From Victivallis vadensis (GTDB taxonomy: Bacteria > Verrucomicrobiota > Kiritimatiellia > UBA8416 > CAMCYG01), in contig CAMCYG010000010.1 of assembly GCA_945883775.1 (NCBI GenBank), positions 1 through 36,458 of the forward strand: DNA of 36,458 nucleotides, read 5' to 3'. This document shows positions 12,141-23,926 of this stretch, piece after piece. The position numbers were made by a program, and so were the translations under genes. Below the pieces are notes generated by a model, which was given only the letters and a program-made list of their open reading frames with translations, had not been told where the DNA came from and made no database searches. The first letter of the stretch is position 1. Every line of letters begins with the position of its first letter.

Positions 12141-12158
12141 TTACGCCGAAAGCCTTTC
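12128..12158. terminator. weak possible bidirectional 3'-end hairpin
   Basis: GAAAGGC (12128-12134) and GCCTTTC (12152-12158) form a 7-bp inverted repeat spanning the abutting stops of the GT2 and receiver genes. The loop is 17 bases and there is no strong T-run, so this is a low-confidence candidate. Confidence 0.2.
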
Positions 12159-12587
12159 TCTGATGAGAGCAAAAAGCTTATCCGTTGAAATAGGCTTGGT
12201 CACAACGCAATGCCGCTTATCCTCCGCAACGATTCTGTCAAGCATATCCGAAGGCGCATATCCGGTACAGAATATCACAGCCGGCATGTTCCATTTCTTT
12301 TCATCACAGATCCGCTTGATCGCAAAGAACGCCTTCTCACCATCCATTACCGGCATCATCAGGTCCATGATTATGACATTATGCTTACTCTCCTGGAAAC
12401 GTTCCACTGCTTCTGCCCCGTTCACAGCCAAATCAATACTCGACTCGGGCAGATGGAGAGAGATCACCTTCATGAACAATTCCCTGATGCCTTTCTCATC
12501 GTCCACGACCATGATTCTCGCCTCTTTAGGCGCCGTATAATCAACCCGTGACTTTACGTTTTCGTTCATGCAAAAAGAATACCGCAT
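12141..12587 (-). CDS. single-domain response regulator (CheY-like receiver)
   Basis: A receiver domain with no output domain, 148 residues from this start. It shows IMVVDDEKGIREL with the two Mg-binding acids, the phosphoacceptor Asp in NVIIMDLMMPVMDGE, Thr in FCTGYAP, and the conserved Lys in VVTKPIS. Such proteins act by protein contacts once phosphorylated. No histidine kinase is in the window. The ATG at 12587 has a weak GGAAA upstream; an ATG at 12569 (MNENVK) is nearly as likely, and a TTG further out is not. It is divergent from the cNMP-PilT gene, with 137 bases between, which makes a role in pilus control an attractive but unproven idea. Confidence 0.88.
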   Translation of the reverse strand: MRYSFCMNENVKSRVDYTAPKEARIMVVDDEKGIRELFMKVISLHLPESSIDLAVNGAEAVERFQESKHNVIIMDLMMPVMDGEKAFFAIKRICDEKKWNMPAVIFCTGYAPSDMLDRIVAEDKRHCVVTKPISTDKLFALIRERLSA

Positions 12588-12632
12588 TTCGATTTCCAGA
12601 CACAACTAAATAAGATTTTATATATTCACTAC

Positions 12633-12661: not shown

Positions 12662-12724
12662 CCTGACATGACAATAATATCAGGCATGTTGCATACTTAA
12701 TCCCAAGACAAGGAGCTGGCGATT

Positions 12725-14572
12725 ATGAACATTATCAAGATTGAAGACAGCATGAGACAGGCAATCACGACCGAACTTCAAAAAAGCAAACTCTTTGCCG
12801 GCCTTTCAACGGAAGATCTTGGAGAGATAACCAAGAGAGCAACCATGATCCAGTACAATGCAGGCGATATTGTCGTCAATCAGGGCGACAAGTCAGACAG
12901 CTTCTTTGTCATCATCGAGGGAGAGGTCGTAATAAAGGCCATGCACGAGACAAAAAACGAGCTGGTTGAAATCGCAAGGGTCAAACCTTTTGACACCATA
13001 GGCGAGATAGGAATGCTGCTTGACCAGCCCCGTTCAGCAACCGTTGAAGCTGGAGCCGATGCAGTACTGCTGATGTTCGACAGCAAGTTCTTCAACGAGA
13101 TGTTCATGAAGCTACCAAGCCTGGGTCTTGTAACATGTAAAGTTCTGGCACAGCGTTTGCAGCAATCATCGCGAAAGTTTCTCAACCAGGCAGTATCACC
13201 AGCAGACATGGTAGTAAATCCGGAAGTGATGAAGCTTTTACCTGTGGAATTCATGCAGAGACAGCGTGTTCTGCCAATGAAGGCCGAGGGCAACATACTG
13301 ACAATAGGCTTCGTTGATGACCCTTCCCCGCAGGTCATTAACCTGACAAGAGAGGCCCTGCCCGGCATGGAGCTGCGTCCCGTTCCAATCGATTCAGCCG
13401 CTTTCAATACCGCGATGATGTCTGCTGGTATCGGAAAAGAAATCACAATAAAATCCGGCACAAAACCGACAAAGGGCGGCGCAAAGAAAAGACAGTCACC
13501 CCATCTGGACGAACTTCTCAGAAGGATGGTGGCAGAAAGAGCATCAGATTTGCACATTTCGGCAGCCCACAAGCCGCGATGGAGAATTGACGGTGAGATC
13601 CTGGAAATCGGTGACGCACAAGTCCTATCTTCCGACGACATATATGGCCTTATTGAGCCGATAATGCCTGAAAGGAATATCACACAGTACGCATCTGATA
13701 ATGACACTGACTTTGCGTATGCAATAGAAGGAGTCGCAAGGTTCAGGGTAAATATATTTTGTGACAACAAGGGCGTTGGCGGCGTGTTTCGTCAGATCCC
13801 CAGCAAGATCCTGAGCGTCGAACAACTTGGGCTTCCCGCAGTCGTCCGCAGGGTATGTGACTACCCCAAAGGGTTGATATTGGTAACCGGCCCCACCGGC
13901 AGTGGAAAATCAACCACCCTCGCCGCAATGATAGACTATATAAACAAAACAAGGACTTCCCATATAATCACAATGGAAGACCCTATTGAGTTCGTGCATA
14001 TCAGCCAGAAGTGCCTAATCAACCAACGTGAGGTTGGTCCACACACCACTTCATTCAGCAGAGCGCTCAGGGCAGTTCTTCGCGAAGACCCCGATATCGT
14101 TCTGGTTGGCGAAATGCGCGACTTGGAAACCGTACAGCTTGCGCTGGAGACAGCAAACACCGGACACCTAGTGTTCGGCACATTGCACACCAATACTGCT
14201 GTAACAACAATAACACGTATAATTGACATGTTCCCTGCCAACCAGCAAAATCAGATAAAGACAGGTCTGGCTGACGGTCTAAAGGCCGTTATCGCGCAAA
14301 CTCTCTGTAAACGCAAAGGCGGAGGACGGGTAGCCGGTCTTGAAATCATGGTCTCTGACACTGGCGTGTCCAACCTCATCAGGGAAGGAAAGACTCAACA
14401 GTTGATGAGCGCCATGCAGACAGGCAAGGCCAGAGGCAACAGAATTCTCAATGAAGAGTTGGCGCGCCTGGTAAAAGAAGGCATCGTAGAACCGGATGAA
14501 GCCTTGAGCAAAACGGTAGACAAACCGGACCTTGCCTCAAAACTCGGCATTAAACTTGCCGCTGAGGAATAG
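12725..14572 (+). CDS. PilT-like pilus ATPase with N-terminal cyclic-nucleotide-binding and GspE_N-like domains
   Basis: A 615-residue fusion. Residues ~20-145 form a cNMP-binding domain: AGDIVVNQGDKSDSFFVIIEGEV, then the phosphate-binding cassette GEIGMLLDQPRSATVEA at 93-109, with Glu94 and Arg103 in place. Residues ~165-245 resemble the GspE N-terminal (MshEN-like) domain (ILTIGFVDDPSPQVINLTR). Residues ~260-600 are a PilT-type retraction ATPase: ASDLHIS, Walker A GPTGSGKST (389-397, Lys395), the Asp box MEDPIEF, Walker B-like VLVGEMRDLETV, and the His box GHLVFGTLHTN. PilT itself is about 345 residues. A ligand-gated motor for type IV pilus retraction is the obvious reading. No other pilus gene is nearby. 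Confidence 0.9.
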   Translation: MNIIKIEDSMRQAITTELQKSKLFAGLSTEDLGEITKRATMIQYNAGDIVVNQGDKSDSFFVIIEGEVVIKAMHETKNELVEIARVKPFDTIGEIGMLLDQPRSATVEAGADAVLLMFDSKFFNEMFMKLPSLGLVTCKVLAQRLQQSSRKFLNQAVSPADMVVNPEVMKLLPVEFMQRQRVLPMKAEGNILTIGFVDDPSPQVINLTREALPGMELRPVPIDSAAFNTAMMSAGIGKEITIKSGTKPTKGGAKKRQSPHLDELLRRMVAERASDLHISAAHKPRWRIDGEILEIGDAQVLSSDDIYGLIEPIMPERNITQYASDNDTDFAYAIEGVARFRVNIFCDNKGVGGVFRQIPSKILSVEQLGLPAVVRRVCDYPKGLILVTGPTGSGKSTTLAAMIDYINKTRTSHIITMEDPIEFVHISQKCLINQREVGPHTTSFSRALRAVLREDPDIVLVGEMRDLETVQLALETANTGHLVFGTLHTNTAVTTITRIIDMFPANQQNQIKTGLADGLKAVIAQTLCKRKGGGRVAGLEIMVSDTGVSNLIREGKTQQLMSAMQTGKARGNRILNEELARLVKEGIVEPDEALSKTVDKPDLASKLGIKLAAEE

Positions 14573-22504: not shown

Positions 22505-23926
<1,422 letters not shown>

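Follow-up and report, generated by a model that had tools for sequence, protein, structure and literature searches.

The PilT subfamily of retraction ATPases (TIGR01420), represented by P. aeruginosa PilT (3jvv) and Geobacter PilT4 (6ojx), is characterised by a complete N2 domain and RecA-like motor, a set of catalytic motifs and an LIR motif. PilT and PilU are described with only one N-terminal domain (PMC12607626) and, according to a 2024 review, the N1 domain separates extension ATPases from retraction ATPases (PMC11656802). In PilB, GspE and MshE, an N1-type domain precedes N2 and the motor, to which it is joined by a linker; some of these proteins sense nucleotides at the N-terminus, and ligands at N1 tune PilB (PMC11656802). 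The c-di-GMP motif of MshEN_N consists of two tandem 24-residue RLGxxL... stretches (PMC5013675). Fusion of a cyclic-nucleotide-binding (CNB) domain to an enzyme has a precedent in an acetyltransferase cited by PMC8316039. The CNB fold and its phosphate-binding cassette are also features of PKA RIα and CRP. To our knowledge, all known links between cAMP and pili are transcriptional (Pil-Chp, CyaB, Vfr), and direct nucleotide control of pilus motors is known as the action of c-di-GMP on extension ATPases. A full-text search of the open-access literature found no published description of a PilT with a CNB domain.

The window, the whole 36,458-nucleotide stretch of DNA that was analysed, belongs to a draft Kiritimatiellota metagenome-assembled genome (MAG) of 182 contigs, which pairs in an RpoB tree with genome G011 (100/100) within a group containing Kiritimatiellota bacterium B12222. 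An uninterrupted open reading frame on the plus strand (12725..14572; ATG at 12725, stop at 14572) encodes a 615 aa protein, identified from the reading-frame list, Pfam, NCBIfam and homologs. All of its features described below lie on the same strand. A Shine-Dalgarno-like AAGGAG (12710..12715), read from the sequence, is placed 9 bases 5′ of the ATG, and the opposite strand of this frame contains many stops in the register that was read. The CNB domain with its flanking helices, delimited with Pfam, models and a PDB fold match, occupies residues 8–150 (12746..13174); the cNMP_binding profile (PF00027) matches residues 43–128 with 61.7 bits (cut-off 27.5). Its phosphate-binding cassette, IGEIGMLLDQPRSATVEA (residues 92–109, 12998..13051), contains E94, G96, R103 and A105. 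Residues 157–233 (13193..13423) constitute the MshEN_C half of the GspE/PilB N1 domain, with a Pfam MshEN match at residues 157–230 (36.1 bits, cut-off 23.1) and weak matches to the N-terminal domains of PilB and PilF. The linker (residues 234–258, 13424..13498) drifts between orthologs, being 4–13% identical, as against 32–56% for CNB and MshEN_C. It is followed by a complete PilT unit comprising the N2/PAS-like domain and the RecA-like motor (residues 259–604, extending to about 607 in the model; 13499..14536), which matches Pfam T2SSE at residues 260–529 (173 bits, cut-off 24.9) and has a best PDB sequence match with an E-value of 6e-110. The motor includes Walker A GPTGSGKST (389–397, K395; 13889..13915), the Walker B region DIVLVGEMRD (457–466, E463; 14093..14122), the His box HLVFGTLHT (481–489, H488; 14165..14191) and GVSNLIRE (547–554, 14363..14386), an AIRNLIRE-like retraction motif with the LIR motif at 550–554. 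The protein scores 456 bits with the PilT/PilU model TIGR01420 (cut-off 319) and stays below the PilB/GspE equivalog cut-offs (160 of 675.65 and 180 of 630.25 bits).

The original prediction, which placed a cNMP-binding domain, a GspE_N-like domain and a PilT ATPase in this order in one 615-residue frame and listed E94, R103, K395, the Walker B and the His box as its key residues, is thus borne out by the reading frame, Pfam and NCBIfam, and each residue and box is at the predicted position. TIGR01420, the motifs and Pfam agree that the protein is a genuine ATPase of the PilT type and that its nucleotide pocket is canonical and intact. The GspE_N-like domain needs a narrower description: the MshEN match is above the cut-off, but it covers the C-terminal half only. 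The tandem MshEN_N motif is absent from the fusion even in a relaxed form, which rules out the MshEN part as a c-di-GMP sensor; since only the MshEN_C half is matched, the CNB domain occupies the place held in MshE by the c-di-GMP-binding half.

The AlphaFold model of the full chain has a mean pLDDT of 83 and contains the CNB domain (8–150) with a cassette helix (94–99) and a C-helix (131–150) running into MshEN_C, the latter modelled as a small α/β domain (157–233), whereas residues 237–254 of the linker have a pLDDT below 50 and are predicted to be disordered. The PilT unit superimposes on Geobacter PilT4 6ojx with a TM-score (target) of 0.93 and an RMSD of 2.0. The CNB domain remodelled with the MshEN part matches the fold of the cAMP-bound CNB-B domain of PKA RIα (TM-score (target) 0.83), and PKA RIα is also its best match among PDB sequences (1e-23). 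The pTM of 0.53–0.55 in the models (0.53 for the full chain) leaves the position of the CNB domain relative to the ATPase ring not fixed.

Compared with PilT, the fusion has about 258 additional N-terminal residues. Retraction ATPases are distinguished in PMC11656802 and PMC12607626 by a single N-terminal domain, N2; the fusion has CNB (8–150) and MshEN_C (157–233) in front of it and is filed as a PilT variant because the sequence-based TIGR01420 does not require a lone N2. Judged by its sequences, the subfamily is an exception to the rule that N1 marks extension ATPases. The arrangement of an N1-type domain, linker, N2 and motor is shared with PilB, GspE and MshE, from which the fusion differs in its PilT-type motor (456 bits, compared with 160 for PilB) and in the replacement of MshEN_N by CNB. 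Unlike PKA RIα and CRP, it has neither a kinase partner nor a DNA-binding domain, and its output would be a pilus motor.

The original prediction had also proposed a survey of this architecture across phyla, which found the fusion in three of them. In these surveys of genome samples, full-length orthologs (58–65% identical) were found in four further genomes of the host's order (5 of 31 including that of the window), and a sample of 388 genomes from the phylum yielded none outside this order. Acidobacteriota, the phylum of an Acidobacteria MAG, contain the fusion in 2 of 297 genomes. It is commonest in the phylum of genome G418, taken as Myxococcota: a profile search with the N-terminal module, in which scoring was limited to the top few candidates of each genome, located CNB-MshEN_C-PilT in at least 46 of 379 genomes. 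The 57 loci read in this phylum comprise 46 CNB-MshEN_C-PilT and 11 CNB-MshEN_C-PilB/GspE proteins. Earlier surveys and trees had suggested a fusion mainly limited to Kiritimatiellota that arose beside the PilTs of this phylum, a view overturned by the N-terminal profile search. A tree built solely from the PilT-domain columns unites 49 fusions in one clade, separate from 16 stand-alone PilTs (100/99), and the five Kiritimatiellota fusions nest within it as a clade of their own (99/96). The single clade points to one origin of the fusion and to its later passage from phylum to phylum, for which Myxococcota are the simplest source; the direction of this transfer is only inferred, as the base of the fusion clade is not resolved.

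Other extended proteins were noted during the surveys. About 150 genomes of Omnitrophota (the phylum of an Omnitrophica MAG) have a CNB match (profile residues 18–147), mostly in a frame of about 690 aa (L182–L189). The phylum was rejected as a carrier of the fusion: its matches are CNB only, and L182, L183, L186 and L189 have no PilT/PilB match. The N-terminal extensions of nine named PilTs contain no Pfam domain, and some may be a mere open frame in GC-rich DNA. Three stand-alone Kiritimatiellota PilTs (L093, L099, L131) have about 140–150 extra C-terminal residues with no Pfam match. An Acidobacteria ortholog of the fusion (L009:6001-8064, +) carries an additional PDZ domain at its C-terminal end, which is uncommon in a pilus ATPase of the cytoplasm. 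No plasmid record covering 80% of the query occurred among the 5000 best, and plasmid carriage was rejected.

The pocket is strongly conserved in 27 homologs with a canonical cassette from the three phyla, including the group of the window protein: G93, G96, R103 and A105 are present in 27 of 27, with Glu at position 94 in 26 and Asp in the remaining one, while the mean identity of the CNB domain is only 34–41%. Within the window's group the residues of the motor are all intact and show no variation. The best explanation, with about even chances of being right, is that the fusion is a PilT-subfamily retraction ATPase fitted with an allosteric receptor of its own for a cyclic mononucleotide, cAMP being the likeliest. 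By analogy with other type IV pilus motors, it would act as a hexamer at PilC, with six CNB-MshEN_C modules tethered flexibly around the ring of PilT, in the position that the N1 domains have in PilB. Membrane-bound class III cyclases would supply cAMP, which would close the cassette over the ligand and move the C-helix of CNB (131–150); MshEN_C could relay this shift either to the ring, at its N2 face, or to the base of the pilus. The relay would change ATP turnover or docking, and hence retraction, in either direction.

The supply of the ligand is consistent with this proposal. Six fusion hosts examined encode 5, 5, 1, 1, 6 and 4 class III cyclases (PF00211; 5 in G000). The cyclases read have both metal-binding Asp residues and the active-site Lys and Thr, the class IIIb adenylyl pattern, and they look like adenylyl cyclases; of four window-genome cyclases that were scanned, three carry CHASE2 or Cache sensors. 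Relatives with a stand-alone PilT frequently possess cyclases as well; because most relatives lacking the fusion have them, cyclases make the cAMP idea possible but not specific to the fusion.

The same N-terminal module precedes an extension/secretion-type ATPase in the 11 CNB-MshEN_C-PilB/GspE proteins (L216, L226, L228–L236), found here only in Myxococcota; seven of the 11 have Arg at the cassette position, and three genomes with such a protein carry the PilT fusion too. Sequences of both kinds tentatively suggest, with chances a little short of even, a multi-phylum subfamily of type IV pilus motors gated directly by a cyclic mononucleotide, in which CNB-PilT would serve retraction and Myxococcota CNB-PilB/GspE would serve extension or secretion, both strokes being controlled post-translationally. 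Two further CNB proteins are encoded directly beside such genes: a double CNB protein (L241:3688-4941, −) adjoins a CNB-PilT gene and a TPR-CNB protein (L248:6545-7951, −) a CNB-PilB gene.

A different ligand for the CNB domain, such as cGMP, another nucleotide or, as in Xanthomonas Clp, c-di-GMP, would likewise gate retraction but is an improbable choice. Ser or Thr directly follows R103 in all seven Kiritimatiellota and Acidobacteriota members, a feature also seen in cGMP-binding CNB domains; Ser after the Arg is, however, also a trait of CRP-type cassettes. The CNB domains of Clp bind c-di-GMP (PMC10333796), and fusion hosts possess GGDEF proteins. On the other side, both the best sequence match and the best fold match are the cAMP-binding PKA RIα, and the host cyclases look adenylyl.

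A comparably unlikely view gives the N-terminal module chiefly a docking or assembly role, in which it would recruit PilT to a partner at the base of the pilus and bind nucleotides only secondarily or constitutively. PilB N1 does bind PilZ and may engage the stator (PMC11656802). A Myxococcota clade of 18 fusions (100/99) has Asp or Glu in place of Gly96 in all members, Arg at 104 in 13 and Ala105 in only four, and it retains CNB-MshEN_C together with K395, E463 and H488, each in 18 of 18. An acidic side chain at the small-residue position of the phosphate-binding loop should prevent canonical CNB binding. From its sequences, the pocket of this clade should accordingly be regarded as lost; since the module has been kept, it must serve some purpose for which a cyclic mononucleotide is not required. 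In the window's group, however, the pocket is invariant in 27 proteins while the rest of the CNB domain has diverged, which would not be expected from docking alone.

A much less probable alternative to a cAMP-gated motor is a cAMP-regulated adaptor or brake that acts on other retraction ATPases and for which ATP hydrolysis is dispensable. A catalytically dead PilT can still connect PilU to the machine (PMC11656802, PMC12607626), and the window genome encodes three further PilT/PilU-like ATPases. In four Myxococcota members (L174, L193, L199, L200), the cassette is kept, Walker A is damaged and the His-box His is missing; all four are likely pseudo-ATPases. The intact, invariant motor residues of the window's group speak against such an adaptor. 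Taken with the clade that has lost its pocket, the motor-dead proteins indicate that pocket and motor are separable and that each is kept in most members. The two sister groups are built-in negative controls for gating, offering matched natural variants.

The idea of a functionless chance join or a MAG artefact, prompted by the draft state of the host genome, is refuted by conserved homologs and has next to no probability: the identical domain order recurs in independent genomes at 46–65% identity, the 49 sequences of one clade share the architecture with CNB and MshEN_C conserved, and the gene has a ribosome-binding site.

In the tree, the fusion groups with PilT and not with the PilU-like paralogs; none of the PilT-like paralogs of the window genome belongs to the canonical PilT group, and C45 and C74 join Stenotrophomonas PilU on long branches. 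Several PilB/GspE proteins are also encoded in this genome, including those of a PilB-PilC-NtrC cluster. A second canonical PilT was not found in the five Kiritimatiellota fusion hosts (E ≤ 1e-60; MAGs 63–93% complete), and a stand-alone PilT of about 58% identity is present in many relatives that lack the fusion. As no other PilT of the fusion's subfamily turned up in the five hosts, it is their main retraction motor that would be under cAMP control. If gating by cAMP is true, cells could switch retraction, and with it surface sensing, DNA uptake and twitching, with no need for new transcription; direct gating need not exclude a parallel transcriptional Vfr/CRP route, which the original prediction had expected it to bypass. 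In Pseudomonas, cAMP levels are influenced by functional retraction motors (PMC12607626), so a feedback loop could then close.

The fusion gene stands alone between a divergent gene for a response-regulator receiver protein (12141..12605, −) and convergent yidC/rnpA. The G011 ortholog is also adjoined by a receiver gene. A functional link between receiver and fusion is only possible, because no neighbour is conserved across the Kiritimatiellota orthologs or the Myxococcota members, and an operon-based or neighbour-based function was ruled out on the same grounds. Relatives of the window genome encode MscS-type mechanosensitive channel proteins with a C-terminal CNB domain (L171, L173). Elsewhere in the window, positions 22505-23926 (−) encode a subunit of the ATP synthase alpha/beta family whose C-terminal domain is of the V/A type, which suggests a gene cluster for a V/A-type ATPase.
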